Shown here in pieces: positions 23,053-43,659 of a DNA stretch of 64,000 bases. The DNA is taken from positions 62,001-126,000 of the IMG/VR virus record IMGVR_UViG_3300025085_000002. One strand, written 5' to 3'. The notes below the pieces were generated by a model, which was not told the DNA's origin, made no database searches, and worked only from the letters and a program-made list of their open reading frames with translations. The DNA comes from a virus. Numbering within the stretch: the first letter of the stretch is position 1; each line of letters opens with the position of its first letter. The position numbers were made by a program, and so were the translations under genes.

Positions 23053-24636
23053 ATGGGTAAAGAAGTATTTTACGGAAAGACATCGAGAGAGAAACTCTTA
23101 GAAGGTGTAGATGCATTAGCAGATGCAGTTGTAGTTACATTAGGACCACGTGGTCGTAACGTGATTATTGAAACTGATACAACACCACATATTACAAAGG
23201 ATGGGGTTACAGTAGCTAAGTCTATTGAATTTACAGACCCAACCAAAAACTTGGGTGCTAAGGTAATCAAAGAAGCATCTCAACAAACTGCTGACAACGC
23301 AGGTGATGGGACAACTACCTCAACTGTACTTGCACGTGATATCTTTAAAAAAGGTATGGATGCAATTGAAAAGGGAGCTAACCCAATTGAATTGAAACGT
23401 GGGATGGATACTGCAGTAAAAGGTATTGTTAATAATCTTGTTGAAACCATTTCAACTAAAGTAGAAACTAACGACCAAATCAAACAGGTAGCAACAATCT
23501 CAGCAAATGGTGATTCGGTGATTGGTTCTATGATTGCTGATGCAATGGACCAAGTTGGTCGTGATGGGGTAATTACTGTTGAAGAGGGTAATTCAAGTGA
23601 TGATGAACTGACTATTGTAGAGGGGTTGGAATTCGAACAAGGATACCTATCACATTATTTCATTAACAATCAGACCAAATTGACTTCTGAATTAGAAGAC
23701 CCTATGATTCTTATGTATGATGGTCGTATTTCAGAAATGGATGACATCGTTGGTATCCTTGAGGGTGTATCAAGTAAGAATCAGGCAATTGTAGTAATTG
23801 CTCAAGAAGTAGATGGGCAAGCGCTAGCTACAATGGTAGTTAATTCGGCACGTCAAACCTTAAAATGTGTTGCTATCAAAGCACCTGGCTTCGGTAACGA
23901 ACGTAGTGAGATGTTGAGAGATATGTCTGCTCTAACCGGCGCTACTTTGTTTGGTGGTGTTGGTAAAGAGTTGGAAGATATCACAATGGATGACTTAGGG
24001 TCAGCTGACAAAGTAGTGGTTAGTAAATCTAAATCAGTAATCATTGGTGGTGCTGGTGAATCGGATGATATCAAACTCCGTATTGACCAAATCAAGAATG
24101 AAATCGAAGAATCGAGTTCAGACTATGAGAAAGAAAAACTACACAAACGATTATCTAAGTTAAGTGGTGGTGTTGCAGTTCTCAGAGTAGGTGCTGAATC
24201 TGAAATCGAGATGAAGGAAAAGAAAGATAGAATTGATGATGCTCTACTTGCTACAAAAGCTGCAGTCGAGGAAGGTATTGTGCCAGGTGGTGGTTCTGCT
24301 CTAATCCACGCAAGTGATAGAATACATATGGGTGTTGATAGATTATCAGCTGACCAAGAAACCGGATTCAATATTGTATGTTCTGCCTGTTACTCACCTT
24401 TTAATTCTATTTTAGAAAATGCAGGTTTAACTTATACACCAGAAGGTGAAACTCAAACTACTTATGGTTATAATGTAGTGACTGAACAATGGTGTGATAT
24501 GTTAGAAGTGGGTGTAATTGACCCAACCAAAGTAACACGAACGGCACTTGAAAAAGCTGTCTCAGTTGCATCTACATTACTAACCACGGAATGTATGATT
24601 GTCAATGAGGTAGAGGATAGTGAATCGGAAGCTTAA
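23053..24636 (+). CDS. groEL: GroEL chaperonin
   Basis: 527 residues, slightly shorter than the usual 540-548. ATP-binding motifs TLGPRGRN (near residue 30) and GDGTTT (near 84-89) are intact, and EGIVPGGGSAL preserves the C-terminal nucleotide region. The Gly-Met tail of cellular GroEL is absent; the protein ends in an acidic EVEDSESEA. It should form a folding ring with the GroES encoded nearby. A J-domain gene begins inside its 3' end. Phage-encoded GroEL is rare. Confidence 0.95.
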   Translation: MGKEVFYGKTSREKLLEGVDALADAVVVTLGPRGRNVIIETDTTPHITKDGVTVAKSIEFTDPTKNLGAKVIKEASQQTADNAGDGTTTSTVLARDIFKKGMDAIEKGANPIELKRGMDTAVKGIVNNLVETISTKVETNDQIKQVATISANGDSVIGSMIADAMDQVGRDGVITVEEGNSSDDELTIVEGLEFEQGYLSHYFINNQTKLTSELEDPMILMYDGRISEMDDIVGILEGVSSKNQAIVVIAQEVDGQALATMVVNSARQTLKCVAIKAPGFGNERSEMLRDMSALTGATLFGGVGKELEDITMDDLGSADKVVVSKSKSVIIGGAGESDDIKLRIDQIKNEIEESSSDYEKEKLHKRLSKLSGGVAVLRVGAESEIEMKEKKDRIDDALLATKAAVEEGIVPGGGSALIHASDRIHMGVDRLSADQETGFNIVCSACYSPFNSILENAGLTYTPEGETQTTYGYNVVTEQWCDMLEVGVIDPTKVTRTALEKAVSVASTLLTTECMIVNEVEDSESEA

Positions 24637-30043: not shown

Positions 30044-30216
30044 AAAGCCAGACCGACCCACATCGAGATGGACACGAACGATTTCGTGTGACTAAGAAAA
30101 ATTTGGAAGATAAACTTCCAAATCCCTCTATATTAAATGAATTACAGGACTTCAACACAACCCTTGGCGATGGGTTAGATGACTTGGACGAATGGTATCC
30201 AGATAACGTATTATAA
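30040..30216 (+). CDS. Hypothetical small protein
   Basis: 58 residues; His/Arg-rich start (PHRDGHERFRV) and acidic end (GDGLDDLDEWYPDN). Coupled to the previous gene. Not recognised. Confidence 0.45.
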   Translation: MKSQTDPHRDGHERFRVTKKNLEDKLPNPSILNELQDFNTTLGDGLDDLDEWYPDNVL

Positions 30217-30227
30217 TAAGGTAAATT

Positions 30228-30296
30228 ATGTTTGCGATAATAGTATTAGGTTTGTTGATAATATACACATATAAAATAACACATGATAATGAATGA
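30228..30296 (+). CDS. Tiny membrane peptide
   Basis: 22 residues, a single hydrophobic helix (FAIIVLGLLIIYTY). Stop overlaps the next start, consistent with translation; otherwise weak. Confidence 0.35.
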   Translation: MFAIIVLGLLIIYTYKITHDNE

Positions 30297-32709: not shown

Positions 32710-32862
32710 ATGAACAAGATGAATCAATTCCTACGCATTGCAAATGCGAGACTCAAAAAGACATACCCTAACAAGATGCAGAGAAAGTCTTGGGCTGCTA
32801 ATATGTATGCGAGATGGATAGAGCGCAAAACCTTTAATGATACAAGTAAGGGTATAAACTGA
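32710..32862 (+). CDS. Hypothetical small basic protein
   Basis: 50 residues, basic and helical (RIANARLKKTYPNKMQRKSW). No recognised domain. Its 3' end is in a tandem repeat (32831-32895). Confidence 0.45.
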   Translation: MNKMNQFLRIANARLKKTYPNKMQRKSWAANMYARWIERKTFNDTSKGIN

Positions 32863-32895
32863 CCTTTAATGATACATTGTAAGGCTATAGCTTGA
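32831..32895 (+). repeat. Imperfect tandem repeat, two 32-33-base units
   Basis: CCTTTAATGATACA begins both units (32831 and 32863), and each ends near TGA. The first unit overlaps the stop of the previous gene. Confidence 0.5.
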
Positions 32896-32916: not shown

Positions 32917-33186
32917 ATGAAAACACCAATGCAAAAACTAATTGAAGTGCTGAAAGTCCATAGAGATACGGCATTTGAAAAGGAGAAACAATACGAAGAC
33001 CTTGTATTGACTGAATACTATGAAGGCAGAGCAAAGGCATTTGAAGATGCTATAAGTTTTGCGGAACTACACCTTGAGAAAGAGAAAGATGTGATGTGCG
33101 ACTTTGCAGATGACTATCAAAGGAACTGCTTCCAAAAATCAGCAGATGACTACTTTGAGGAAACCTTTAAAAAAAAAGAGAAATGA
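32917..33186 (+). CDS. Hypothetical protein (MKTPMQ family)
   Basis: 89 residues, helical, starts MKTPMQKLIEVL. It shares this start and general form with the next gene, so they are tandem duplicates. Function unknown. Confidence 0.5.
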   Translation: MKTPMQKLIEVLKVHRDTAFEKEKQYEDLVLTEYYEGRAKAFEDAISFAELHLEKEKDVMCDFADDYQRNCFQKSADDYFEETFKKKEK

Positions 33187-33428
33187 AAACACCAATGCAA
33201 GAGTTGATTGAGCAACTTGAAAAAGAACACAAGAGATTTTTAGAGGAAGATGATGTGCCTAATTGGTTCTACAAAAACGGAATAAAACAAGCAATCAAAT
33301 ACGCTGAATCAATGCTTGATAAAGAGAAAGAGGTGATGGAGTCTGCTTGGCAAGATGGTATGTATGAATGTGACGGAGACGGAACATTTGAAGATTTCTA
33401 CAAAACCTTTAACACCAAAGAGAAATAA
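33183..33428 (+). CDS. Hypothetical protein (MKTPMQ family)
   Basis: 81 residues, starts MKTPMQELIEQLE, helical and acidic. Tandem paralogue of the 32917 gene, with overlapping start and stop (ATGA). Confidence 0.5.
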   Translation: MKTPMQELIEQLEKEHKRFLEEDDVPNWFYKNGIKQAIKYAESMLDKEKEVMESAWQDGMYECDGDGTFEDFYKTFNTKEK

Positions 33429-33454
33429 AATAATAATTGCTAAATAAGTAGTAT

Positions 33455-33622
33455 ATGAAGTATACACAAGGGTATATCCCAAAAATTAAGTACTGGTACG
33501 GAGTACTAAAGACAGCCGAAGGAGCAACGGCTATGAATCATGCTCTGAGTAAGATGAACTACTTCCAAAATAGACACTATGAAGTGTATGGGGAGTGGAT
33601 ATCAGTAGATGACCTTATCTAA
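33455..33622 (+). CDS. Hypothetical protein, paralogue of 32385
   Basis: 55 residues beginning MKYTQGYIPKIKYWYG, sharing GYIPKI-x-YW and -x-KMN-x-F with the gene 1.07 kb upstream. A 38-base exact repeat also follows each copy. Confidence 0.5.
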   Translation: MKYTQGYIPKIKYWYGVLKTAEGATAMNHALSKMNYFQNRHYEVYGEWISVDDLI

Positions 33623-33626
33623 GGAA

Positions 33627-33664
33627 CTAAGCCGTTCCACCCCCGTAAACCATTATAGGTGATG
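33627..33664 (+). repeat. 38-base direct repeat, copy 2
   Basis: Exact match of 32616-32653. Confidence 0.75.
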
Positions 33665-33887
33665 AAAGAGACTCGTGTGGGGGGTGGGGGCATTTTAACG
33701 TAACCCTCTAGCAATCAAGCTGTTAGAAGGGGCTGGGGTCGGTTTTCCTATCGAGCCTGGTTTTTTTGGATGGAAAAGAAGTCCCCTCCACGCTTGGATA
33801 CACCAAAGTGAGATGATATTAAAATACCTAATGTTAATATATGGGTAATACTTGTTAATAACCTGTCAATACTTTCAGAGATATTGT

Positions 33888-33918
33888 TTGGTTATACAAG
33901 TATATTGTTGTATATTAG
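33888..33918 (+). promoter_or_regulatory. Bacteroidota-type promoter
   Basis: TTGG at 33888, 19-base spacer, TATATTAG at 33911, leader with AATAAGAGATAAGAGTT, then ATG 33942. No TTAACA pair at the fixed spacing. Confidence 0.7.
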
Positions 33919-33941
33919 TAGAGTAATAAGAGATAAGAGTT

Positions 33942-34235
33942 ATGACGTATTTAATTGACCCACAAGATTTAGTCCTTAGAGCATGGACACGTATTAAAGG
34001 TTTCAATGACATGGTTATTGGTAACGACATTGAATCACACACACTATTAGAACTAGCAACTGAGGTTTCTGAAGAGTGGACTAACGATTGGGATGAAGAC
34101 CAAGGGTTTGGTTCTTCTGATGGGACGTATATGTTAAAGGAGTTTATTGATTCCGTGATAGGGCTGGTTCATTGGAAGAATCATAAGAAAGAGTATTCTA
34201 CTAAGTTCAACCCGATGTTAGAGGTTGTTAAATAA
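33942..34235 (+). CDS. Hypothetical protein
   Basis: 97 residues, acidic with several Trp (SEEWTNDWDEDQGFGSSDG). Not recognised. Leads a small operon of tiny genes. Confidence 0.6.
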   Translation: MTYLIDPQDLVLRAWTRIKGFNDMVIGNDIESHTLLELATEVSEEWTNDWDEDQGFGSSDGTYMLKEFIDSVIGLVHWKNHKKEYSTKFNPMLEVVK

Positions 34236-34244
34236 TTTTGGATT

Positions 34245-34403
34245 ATGAAGTATTGGAAGTATTATAAGGTGCCTGTGTTTTTTTCGTGGTTGTTCAGAGT
34301 TAGAATGGAACGATTGGGTTGGAAGGTTACCAAGGTCTCAGGCGTTATACTATTAACCTATCGTGTGTCTACATATGATAGAGAGTTATATATGGGGTTA
34401 TGA
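34245..34403 (+). CDS. Hypothetical small basic protein
   Basis: 52 residues, aromatic and basic at the N-terminus (MKYWKYYKVPVFFSWLFRVR). Could bind membranes. Not recognised. Confidence 0.45.
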   Translation: MKYWKYYKVPVFFSWLFRVRMERLGWKVTKVSGVILLTYRVSTYDRELYMGL

Positions 34404-34462
34404 TAAGAAATAACGATAATCTTTACATAGTAAAGGAGATGTGATAAGAAAATGGAAAGTTT

Positions 34463-34699
34463 ATGACTGATAAACAATGGTCAGCTTTAATAAGGATGAC
34501 AAGGGGTGGGATACATTCAGTAGAAGCTTCCCTTGGAAAGATAACCTTGATTAAAAAGGATGATGGGTTTGACTTAGAGTATCCTTCCCATAGTGTATCT
34601 TTGTATAGGGATGTTGATATACCTTCTACTGATGGTTATTATCTTCATTATATGTATAATGATTTATTTAATAAAGTATTTGACCACTCTTGTATATAG
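34463..34699 (+). CDS. Hypothetical protein (WSALIRM family)
   Basis: 78 residues. Starts MTDKQWSALIRM, shared with the gene at 34822. The rest is beta-like and not conserved. Function unknown. Confidence 0.5.
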   Translation: MTDKQWSALIRMTRGGIHSVEASLGKITLIKKDDGFDLEYPSHSVSLYRDVDIPSTDGYYLHYMYNDLFNKVFDHSCI

Positions 34700-41513: not shown

Positions 41514-41587
41514 GGACTCGTAGCTCAGCTGGATAGAGCATCTGCCTTCTAAGCAGACGGTCATAGGTTCGAATCCTATCGGGTTCA
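41514..41587 (+). tRNA. tRNA-Arg (TCT)
   Basis: Cloverleaf with acceptor GGACTCG/CGGGTTC, D-arm GCTC...GAGC, anticodon loop CTTCTAA (TCT), T-loop TTCGAAT, discriminator A. No encoded CCA. Confidence 0.92.
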
Positions 41588-41679
41588 CATAGAGTGGGTA
41601 AAAAGTTTAGTACACCTCTGCAGGGGTAAATGTAAGTTACTATTAATAGGACTACGTATCCTAACGACTACTCTTATTT

Positions 41680-41751
41680 GCTCGGTTCGTCTATCGGTTA
41701 GGACCTATGGTTTTCATCCATAAAAGAGGGGTTCGATTCCCCTACCGAGTA
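41680..41751 (+). tRNA. tRNA-Glu (TTC)
   Basis: Acceptor GCTCGGT/ACCGAGT, anticodon loop TTTTCAT (TTC), T-loop TTCGATT, discriminator A. Confidence 0.92.
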
Positions 41752-41755
41752 CAAT

Positions 41756-41826
41756 TGTCCGATGGTGTAATGGCAACACTTCTGTTTTTGGTACAGACAT
41801 TCAAGGTTCGAGTCCTTGTCGGATAA
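41756..41826 (+). tRNA. tRNA-Gln (TTG)
   Basis: Acceptor TGTCCGA/TCGGATA, anticodon loop TTTTGGT (TTG), T-loop TTCGAGT, discriminator A. Confidence 0.92.
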
Positions 41827-41851
41827 CTAAGTTTACTAAAGTTGAGTAGAC

Positions 41852-41859
41852 TATTTATT
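41852..41859 (+). promoter_or_regulatory. TATTTATT box, candidate late promoter
   Basis: GACTATTTATTTAA between tRNA-Gln and the 41880 gene. One of eight recurring boxes. Confidence 0.25.
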
Positions 41860-41879
41860 TAAAATTAAATTACAAAGTC

Positions 41880-42137
41880 ATGAGTAAAATTTCAAGAAGA
41901 TTATTCCAAGCATTGGAATCAAAATATACGGCAGAGATTATGGATGCAAGAGCACGTATCTCTATCTACTTTGAAAATCCGGTAGCTATCGGAGAACACC
42001 CACAACATACTGAAGAGATTGATTTGTTAGTATCACAGTTGACTGATGCTACTGATAAACTATCTACACTACGTGATAACTTTGGCCAAGAGTATGGTGA
42101 GTTTGATGATAACGACAAACAAGTATTAAAGGGATAA
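41880..42137 (+). CDS. Hypothetical helical protein within tRNA cluster
   Basis: 85 residues, helical and acidic (LVSQLTDATDKLSTLRDNFG). It lies between tRNA-Gln and tRNA-Ser. Not recognised. Confidence 0.6.
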   Translation: MSKISRRLFQALESKYTAEIMDARARISIYFENPVAIGEHPQHTEEIDLLVSQLTDATDKLSTLRDNFGQEYGEFDDNDKQVLKG

Positions 42138-42146
42138 TATCCGCTA

Positions 42147-42231
42147 GGAAGATTGGCAGAGTGGTCGATTGCACTGGTCTTGAAAACCAGCGTACAGCAA
42201 TGTACCATAGGTTCGAATCCTATATCTTCCG
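42147..42231 (+). tRNA. tRNA-Ser (TGA)
   Basis: Class II tRNA with long variable arm (GCGTACAGCAATGTAC), acceptor GGAAGAT/ATCTTCC, anticodon loop CTTGAAA (TGA), T-loop TTCGAAT, discriminator G. Confidence 0.92.
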
Positions 42232-42261
42232 CAATTCGCAGTCAAGTATTTTATATTTTAT

Positions 42262-42292
42262 TTGTTTTATTCAAAAAATTGTTGTATATTGT
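42262..42292 (+). promoter_or_regulatory. Bacteroidota-type promoter of the tRNA-like RNAs
   Basis: TTGT at 42262, 19-base spacer, TATATTGT at 42285-42292. Transcription should begin around 42297-42300, 5-8 bases before the first tRNA-like element. Confidence 0.7.
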
Positions 42293-42304
42293 ATAAACAA
42301 TAAC

Positions 42305-42376
42305 GCGGGAGAAGACTTAAAAGAAAGTCGTCTATCATCCAGATAGAAGGTGTTGGGGCAGTACCAACCTCCCGCT
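42305..42376 (+). ncRNA. tRNA-Gly(UCC)-like RNA, copy 1
   Basis: 72 nt fold: acceptor GCGGGAG/CTCCCGC (7 bp), AA linker, GACTT/AAGTC arm with loop AAAAGA, one G, TCTAT/ATAGA arm with loop CATCCAG, linker AGGT, GTTGG/CCAAC arm with loop GGCAGTA, discriminator T. This is exact tRNA topology. Position 34-36 is TCC and the first three pairs and U73 match bacterial glycine identity. U33 is A, position 8 is A, the D-loop lacks GG and the T-loop lacks TTC, so it is not a normal decoding tRNA. Whether it is charged is unknown. Confidence 0.62.
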
Positions 42377-42379
42377 CAA

Positions 42380-42439
42380 AGAGAATGGTTAAAGATTGGG
42401 ATAAGGCCGCTCAATTTAAGCTACCGGTTATCATTCTCT
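42380..42439 (+). ncRNA. Candidate structured RNA between tRNA-like elements
   Basis: AGAGAATG (42380) pairs with CATTCTCT (42432), extendable to 10 bp with G-U pairs. Inside, ATTGGG/CTCAAT forms a hairpin whose loop bases GGCCG can pair with downstream CGGTT, an H-type pseudoknot. It lies on the same predicted transcript as both tRNA-like RNAs. Function unknown. Confidence 0.4.
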
Positions 42440-42444
42440 ATAAT

Positions 42445-42516
42445 GCGGAAGAGGAGTTAAGAGAAACTCGTTGAACATCCAGTTCAAAGATGGTGGGGCG
42501 GAGCCACCCTTCCGCT
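42445..42516 (+). ncRNA. tRNA-Gly(UCC)-like RNA, copy 2
   Basis: 72 nt with the same layout as copy 1: GCGGAAG/CTTCCGC, AG, GAGTT/AACTC with loop AAGAGA, G, TTGAA/TTCAA with identical loop CATCCAG, AGAT, GGTGG/CCACC with loop GGCGGAG, discriminator T. Six base pairs differ from copy 1 by compensatory changes and none is broken. It carries the same glycine identity set and the same loss of U33, GG and TTC. Confidence 0.62.
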
Positions 42517-42522
42517 CAATAA

Positions 42523-42595
42523 GCGAAAGTAGCTCAGCTGGTAGAGCATCACCTTGCCAAGGTGGGGGTCGCGAGTTCGAATCTCGTCTTTCGCT
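42523..42595 (+). tRNA. tRNA-Gly (GCC)
   Basis: Acceptor GCGAAAG/CTTTCGC, D-arm GCTC...GAGC, anticodon loop TTGCCAA (GCC), T-loop TTCGAAT, discriminator T. A canonical glycine tRNA directly after the two unusual ones. Confidence 0.92.
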
Positions 42596-42607
42596 CTAAG
42601 ATTCTTA

Positions 42608-42899: not shown

Positions 42900-43334
42900 A
42901 TGATACATTGGTTTTATGGACAGCCAGGAAGTGGTAAGACCACACTGGCTAAAGCTATGATAAGTAACTCACCTCAATTGGAGTTTAAGAAACACATACA
43001 TATTGATGGTGATGAAATGAGAACTATCTTTAATAATAAAGATTACTCAAAAGAAGGTAGGTTGAATAACTTACGTAATGTTAATAATATAGCAAGATTC
43101 TTAGAATACAAAGGGTACGATGTATTCGTATCAGTTGTTGCTCCTTACAATGATATACGTGATGAGCTAAGGGATTTAGATATTAATTACTATTACGTAC
43201 ATACAACTGAAACGAGGGGTCGTGAAGATTACTTTGCGTCTGATTTTGAATTCAACGACTCTGATATTAAAATTAACACAACAAACAAATCAGTTACTGA
43301 ATCATTAAATGAAGTATTCACTATTCATAGGTAG
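42900..43334 (+). CDS. Adenylylsulfate-kinase-like P-loop kinase
   Basis: 144 residues. WFYGQPGSGKTTLAKAM is the Walker A of the APS kinase/gluconate-kinase group, HIDGDEMRTIF the DGD loop that follows it in CysC, and VFVSVVAPYNDIRDEL resembles the CysC 'VSxISPY' segment. It may phosphorylate APS to make PAPS for the sulfotransferase at 17554, but another acceptor cannot be excluded. Overlaps the nucleotidyltransferase. Confidence 0.72.
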   Translation: MIHWFYGQPGSGKTTLAKAMISNSPQLEFKKHIHIDGDEMRTIFNNKDYSKEGRLNNLRNVNNIARFLEYKGYDVFVSVVAPYNDIRDELRDLDINYYYVHTTETRGREDYFASDFEFNDSDIKINTTNKSVTESLNEVFTIHR

Positions 43335-43659
43335 GTGGCAACCATGGCACGAAGGTCATCAATGGTTAATTGACCAAGAGTTAAATAAAGGTAATAACGT
43401 TTGTCTTGCTATACGAGATGTGGAGGTTGATGAGAATAACCCATGGACCGCTAAACGTATACAAATGAGATTGGGTCACATTCACTACGACTTGATAACT
43501 CAAGGTAGAATTAAAACTGTTATTATTCCTGACATACAATCGGTTAACTATGGTAGAGGTGTGGGTTATGACATAAATGAACACGTGCCACCACAAGAGG
43601 TATCCGACATATCAGCTACTAAGATTCGAGAACAAATGAAAAAAGATGGTAAGTTATAA
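43309..43659 (+). CDS. Cytidylyltransferase-like nucleotidyltransferase
   Basis: 116 residues. FIGRWQPWHEGHQWLI contains the HxGH motif and ISATKIREQM the ISxTxIR motif of the adenylyl/cytidylyltransferase fold. Short for a full NMN or ATP-sulfurylase enzyme; substrate unclear. Possibly works with the adjacent kinase on sulfate or a sugar/NAD precursor. Confidence 0.78.
   Translation: MKYSLFIGRWQPWHEGHQWLIDQELNKGNNVCLAIRDVEVDENNPWTAKRIQMRLGHIHYDLITQGRIKTVIIPDIQSVNYGRGVGYDINEHVPPQEVSDISATKIREQMKKDGKL

Follow-up and report, generated by a model that had tools for sequence, protein, structure and literature searches.

Fem transferases, which depend on tRNA, are enzymes of the GNAT fold, and some of the staphylococcal cell-wall tRNA-Gly possess a G55 (GUGC in the T-loop), as do the phage variants described here. 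The non-proteinogenic tRNA-Gly of staphylococci serve FemXAB in the making of pentaglycine bridges, so that a GNAT-fold transferase uses glycine off the ribosome, and the GG18-19 of the D-loop is lost in these cell-wall tRNAs (PMC4052509). A second system of relevance is Mom of phage Mu which, according to a passage of PMC3874153 (its ref. 20), makes alpha-N-(purin-6-yl)glycinamide in DNA. The DUF4338/DruA domain, present in DruA of the Druantia defence system, has been described as a GNAT domain as well (PMC10853773).

The locus studied here lies in a window of 64,000 nucleotides, spanning bases 62001-126000 of a virus record of 172,976 bases (IMGVR_UViG_3300025085_000002), and holds two tRNA-Gly-like RNAs, named copies A and B. 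As in staphylococci, the glycine identity is kept, GG18-19 is changed and an ordinary tRNA-Gly is encoded alongside. In contrast to the staphylococcal tRNAs, the RNAs are phage-encoded, have positions 18/55 swapped to A/G with G19-C56 kept, carry A8/U14 and are often without U33, and the candidate user enzyme of the phage probably acts on DNA, whereas the staphylococcal one acts on the cell wall. The likeness to Mu consists of two Mom-family genes in the same phage, the Mu product being a glycinamide-adenine, and the likeness to Druantia of a DruA-family protein which is encoded next to the RNA in related phages. Unlike Druantia DruA, the phage protein is encoded by a stand-alone gene, placed in the window's genome between sliding clamp and clamp loader, outside any Druantia defence operon. 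Our search of the literature, subscription papers and preprints excepted, returned no publication on these RNAs or on the donor of the Mom group.

Results and discussion

Two tRNA-Gly-like RNAs in the tRNA array of a T4-like phage

The tail sheath, major head protein and terminase that it encodes mark the phage as T4-like. A tRNA array at 41514-42596 contains five ordinary tRNAs (Arg, Glu, Gln, Ser and Gly(GCC), called by ARAGORN and Rfam), and copies A and B sit between tRNA-Ser and tRNA-Gly(GCC), the latter beginning 5 nt downstream of copy B. The features of the array are the following.

41514..42232, + strand: tRNA-Arg(UCU), tRNA-Glu(UUC), tRNA-Gln(UUG) and tRNA-Ser(UGA), all canonical (ARAGORN, Rfam)
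41880-42137: ORF of 85 aa inside the array
42305..42377, + strand: tRNA-Gly-like RNA, copy A, 73 nt (fold, covariance model, alignment)
42380..42439, + strand: conserved structured RNA between copies A and B (alignment of six relatives)
42445..42517, + strand: tRNA-Gly-like RNA, copy B, 73 nt, paralogue of copy A (fold, covariance model, alignment)
42523..42596, + strand: ordinary tRNA-Gly(GCC) with canonical U8, G18G19 and TTC (ARAGORN, Rfam)

Copy A combines an acceptor GCGGGAG/CTCCCGC and U73 with a D-arm GACTT..AAGTC, an anticodon loop CATCCAG (anticodon UCC) and a T-arm GTTGG GGCAGTA CCAAC; copy B has the acceptor GCGGAAG/CTTCCGC, the same anticodon loop CATCCAG and the T-loop GGCGGAG. 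A cloverleaf with a 7-bp acceptor and D, anticodon and T arms is present in both, and when folded each alone they adopt an identical four-arm structure (-29.2 and -28.3 kcal/mol), bearing out the tRNA topology and the coordinates that a preliminary description had assigned to them. Of the 73 positions, 55 are identical between the copies. All six compensatory pairs which that description reported between them could be verified (5-68, 12-23, 28-42, 29-41, 31-39 and the second T-stem pair, the last being U-A in copy A and G-C in copy B), with zero pairs broken. Neither copy was called by ARAGORN, or by Rfam at the gathering score or at E<=5, and blastn of both against cultured phages gave only chance matches of AT-rich flanks.

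The RNA at 42380-42439, between the two copies, consists of a 10-bp stem, a 7-bp hairpin with a ATAAGGCCG loop and a 4-bp pseudoknot to CTACCGG; its pairing is 100% kept, with seven double-changed pairs, among the six relatives compared, and an Rfam search with it gave no match. Elsewhere in the window, an APS-kinase-like ORF and a weakly nucleotidyltransferase-like ORF lie at 42900-43659, downstream of the tRNA array, and the start of an ORF at 23053-24633 resembles a GroEL-type chaperonin.

A conserved RNA family in three groups of phages

Contigs of IMG/VR were searched with a DNA pattern first and then with a covariance model, R1, built from eight sequences. Homologues with preserved pairing, which the preliminary description had suggested looking for in this way, were found in many contigs (E about 1e-23 to 1e-12), and two matches of the DNA pattern in Chloroflexi genomes were discarded as unsupported by the covariance model. 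The family comprises 64 distinct sequences, of the window type and of a sister clade, plus deviant copies in the Pelagibacter phages HTVC008M and Mosig. In a 55-sequence alignment 98.7% of the cells are paired, and 18 of the 23 pairs have undergone double changes, 282 cells being double-changed where slid controls gave 24-46 and shuffles 80. Copies A and B are members of a real, conserved RNA family with a selected structure, far beyond chance.

Window-type contigs usually carry two copies, 76-559 nt apart, and in one case three. The second T-stem pair is mostly U-A in first copies and G-C in second copies, and first copies are alike at 60/73 positions, compared to 55/73 between first and second copies. 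Because first copies are thus closer to each other than to second copies, two paralogous lineages appear, from these alignments, to be maintained in the window-type phages.

Phages of the sister clade carry one RNA copy each, and several of them also encode a tmRNA. Their RNAs are called by ARAGORN, have kept U33 and mostly have kept TTC as well. As a separate observation, tmRNAs with unusual tag peptides occur in the DruA-carrying phages L123, L124, L130, L133, L134, L138, L176 and L196, mostly of the sister clade.

The third group is formed by the cultured Pelagibacter phages HTVC008M and Mosig EXVC030M, in which the variant is built on a T4-type tRNA-Gly body. Their elbow-variant tRNA-Gly genes are unannotated (KC465899.1:91140-91211 and MT647606.1:7781-7852), and in both the 3' CCA is encoded. 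Between the Mosig RNA and T4-type tRNA-Gly(UCC) the acceptor and D-arm are near letter-for-letter the same (GCGGATATCGTATAA..GTATTAC), whereas the D-loop TGG has become AAG and the T-loop TTCGATT has become GGCAGTA. The Mosig RNA overlaps an annotated hypothetical CDS of 96 bases (Mosig_000011), which is probably spurious, and HTVC008M was published with zero tRNAs (PMC7029224).

Coupled swaps at the tRNA elbow

From the tertiary set U8-A14, G18-U55, G19-C56 and U54-A58, G19-C56 alone is kept in copies A and B. The preliminary description had noted that both lack U8, the D-loop GG and the TTC of the T-loop. The canonical letters are indeed absent, but they have been exchanged in coupled swaps at 8/14, 18/55 and 54/58 rather than lost, and only half of GG18-19 is replaced (A18 in 49/64, G19 being kept). 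Of the 64 distinct sequences, all have A/U at positions 8/14 (canonical: U8/A14); 49 have A/G and 15 have G/U at positions 18/55, never a mixture; 47 have G/G and 17 have U/A at positions 54/58; and 63 have G/C at positions 19/56. Since these pairs have been swapped in a coupled fashion and G19-C56 persists, the L-shape is probably preserved.

Two intermediates, L064:4963 and L102:4441, have A18/G55 together with U54/A58, indicating that the 18/55 exchange can come before the 54/58 exchange. The pelagiphage RNAs carry A18/G55 on a body with canonical U8/A14, positions 54/58 being G/G in Mosig and A/U in HTVC008M, and contig G046 (IMGVR_UViG_3300021960_000046) holds, besides a UCC variant at 32794-32865, a tRNA-Gly(GCC) with A18/G55 at 30194-30266 on the - strand. 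On the strength of these T4-type-body and GCC forms, the A18/G55 exchange probably arose several times.

The elbow change is close to glycine-specific in this data set. U55 is present in 181 of 183 non-glycine tRNAs from the same loci, and control phages without DruA (T4, S-PM2, G038, LR756508) have an ordinary G18/U55 tRNA-Gly. The T-stem was also considered as an argument for the EF-Tu avoidance invoked in the preliminary description, and it does not tell the variants from ordinary tRNA-Gly: nearly all variants have the weak EF-Tu pairs G49-C65 and U51-A63, yet so do 5 of the 10 ordinary phage tRNA-Gly(UCC) from the same loci.

Glycine identity is kept and decoding features are relaxed

The glycine set for bacterial GlyRS recognised at the outset in copies A and B (G1-C72, C2-G71, G3-C70, U73, C35 and C36) is kept in both and across the family: C35, C36, A37 and U73 are found in all 64 distinct sequences and GCG at positions 1-3 in 63, the single exception being U2-G71. 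Anticodon UCC is found in 51 sequences and ACC in the remaining 13, each of them a glycine anticodon. U33 is needed for the anticodon turn in elongator tRNAs. Its absence, reported for the two copies, is correct for them (both have A33) but does not hold as a rule for the family, as U33 is lost in 30 and present in 19 of the 49 distinct A18/G55-type sequences and is present in 15/15 distinct G18/U55 sequences of the sister clade.

Features read by the synthetase are thus kept and features read by the ribosome are loosened, which makes use off the ribosome the best explanation in our view: copies A and B would be phage-encoded glycine tRNAs specialised for an off-ribosome job, a tentative reading to which we assign a probability of roughly 0.4. 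The likening of the two RNAs to staphylococcal off-ribosome tRNA-Gly in the preliminary description gains support from the kept identity, the restriction of anticodons to UCC and ACC, the relaxed U33, the almost glycine-restricted elbow change and the ordinary tRNA-Gly alongside. Host GlyRS would charge the RNAs, as their identity elements suggest, and the altered elbow and relaxed U33 would, by analogy with the staphylococcal cell-wall tRNA-Gly, keep much of the charged RNA out of translation.

These same features have to be weighed against a role in decoding, in which each RNA would be a tRNA-Gly(UCC) whose unusual core is compensated and which is maintained to translate GGA and GGG in phage mRNAs. 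Such a tRNA would account for the exclusive use of glycine anticodons, the constant A37, the kept G19-C56 and compensated elbow swaps, the location of the RNAs in tRNA arrays, and the sister-clade relatives with U33 and mostly TTC that ARAGORN calls. It would not be expected to lose U33 as often as seen here, or to show an elbow change nearly confined to glycine. Moreover, the variants coexist with an ordinary phage tRNA-Gly(GCC) or (UCC), the latter in L072, L093, L098 and L102, and there are usually two paralogues even though GGA and GGG make up only 938 of the 3263 glycine codons in the ORFs of the window's phage genome. We therefore hold a decoding role to be doubtful.

There is precedent for phage tRNAs that escape host anticodon nucleases, and it raises the alternative of a replacement tRNA-Gly resisting a host anticodon nuclease, or another tRNA-attacking defence, that reads the normal loop or elbow. 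It fits with variation at positions 32, 33 and 38 and in the elbow while the identity is kept. A resistant tRNA must still decode, however, and U33 is often absent; the changes span both loops and the 8/14 pair, and the association with DruA described below is left unexplained, making nuclease resistance distinctly unlikely.

DruA and Mom as candidate users of the glycine

In 22/22 sister-clade copies, a DruA gene starts 43-66 nt downstream of the RNA, with a small conserved hairpin in between. The encoded protein of 396-397 aa belongs to the DruA family (PF14236/DUF4338, 4.6e-26). An AF2 model built from 40 sequences (pLDDT 87.9, compared to 60 for an earlier model from 8 sequences) gave weak matches in the PDB, mainly to GNAT proteins, with a best E of 6e-3. 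A direct sequence relation between DruA and Mu Mom was also considered and dropped, as profile comparison shows none. The constant spacing and the hairpin could also mean that the sister-clade RNA acts in cis on the DruA transcript, as its leader or as an element for its processing, which is highly improbable given that the window-clade RNAs are part of tRNA arrays, with the DruA gene 62 kb away, that the pelagiphage RNAs are about 4-7 kb from this gene, and that charging is suggested by the glycine identity and the encoded CCA.

The DruA orthologue in the window's genome (G000:40864-42051) lies between the sliding-clamp and clamp-loader genes, and the same replication cluster holds a tandem pair of genes for Mom-family proteins (PF25680, E 4e-43 and 3e-44; G000 33024-33782 and 33847-34560), the gene order being Mom, Mom, two ORFs, DNA polymerase, clamp, DruA, clamp loader. 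Both DruA and 2-3 Mom genes are present in 9/9 RNA-positive contigs of at least 115 kb, a count that leaves out near-identical records of the window's phage. These near-complete genomes are few, most contigs being fragments, and the nine are non-independent as the co-occurrence tracks lineage. An RNA-negative relative, G008 (181 kb), has neither DruA nor Mom. In the Pelagibacter phages the variant RNA goes together with DruA while Mom is absent, which makes DruA the more constant of the two partners and rules out an explanation by Mom only. Distant cyanophage DruA-like proteins have no variant tRNA alongside, and a viral scan with Mom returned close relatives only. In one sister-clade phage, a DNA methyltransferase-like ORF with a DPPY motif is located near the DruA gene (L099:9470-10252, - strand).

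An invariant glycine identity set, relaxed decoding features and duplicated copies would also suit a role as decoy for GlyRS, for a tRNA nuclease (both raised in the preliminary description) or for a Gly-tRNA-acetylating toxin, any of which the RNA would sequester, yet an intact covarying elbow, the encoded CCA of the pelagiphages and a fixed site before DruA are all unnecessary for a decoy, and we consider this role improbable.

If the RNAs are off-ribosome glycine tRNAs, their glycine may be taken by phage acyltransferase-fold enzymes, the best candidate users being the GNAT-like DruA-family protein and the tandem Mom proteins of the replication cluster. DruA and/or Mom would then hand the glycine on to a substrate of the phage, for which DNA is the likeliest choice in view of the gene context and the known Mom product. 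As a purely chemical proposal, if N6 of adenine were glycylated by Gly-tRNA and the product then underwent an intramolecular Smiles-type rearrangement via a five-membered intermediate, exactly alpha-N-(purin-6-yl)glycinamide would result. The full scheme of tRNA-dependent DNA hypermodification, in which GNAT enzymes of the DruA/Mom type would take glycine from the phage-encoded Gly-tRNA and place glycinamide-adenine, or another glycyl base of this kind, in the viral DNA, is rather unlikely as it stands. We know of no tRNA that participates in the Mu Mom system, and several observations speak against a donor role off the ribosome: Mu, to our knowledge, possesses mom without a tRNA gene of its own, the DruA gene of the window's clade is 62 kb away from the RNAs, the pelagiphages lack Mom, the distant cyanophage DruA-like proteins occur without a variant tRNA, the co-occurrence tracks lineage, the T-stem pairs recur in ordinary phage tRNA-Gly(UCC), and DruA has weak PDB matches and shows no sequence relation to Mu Mom.

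Conclusions

The RNAs described here constitute a widespread family of phage tRNAs that standard tools have overlooked, including in the cultured Pelagibacter phage HTVC008M, and they display a naturally occurring, coupled change at the tRNA elbow, from G18/U55 to A18/G55, which is confined almost entirely to glycine tRNAs. They make it testable whether an aminoacyl-tRNA is the source of a glycine-like group for the acyltransferase-fold DNA modifiers Mom and DruA and, if the proposed tRNA-dependent DNA hypermodification is true, it would identify a donor for the Mom modification.
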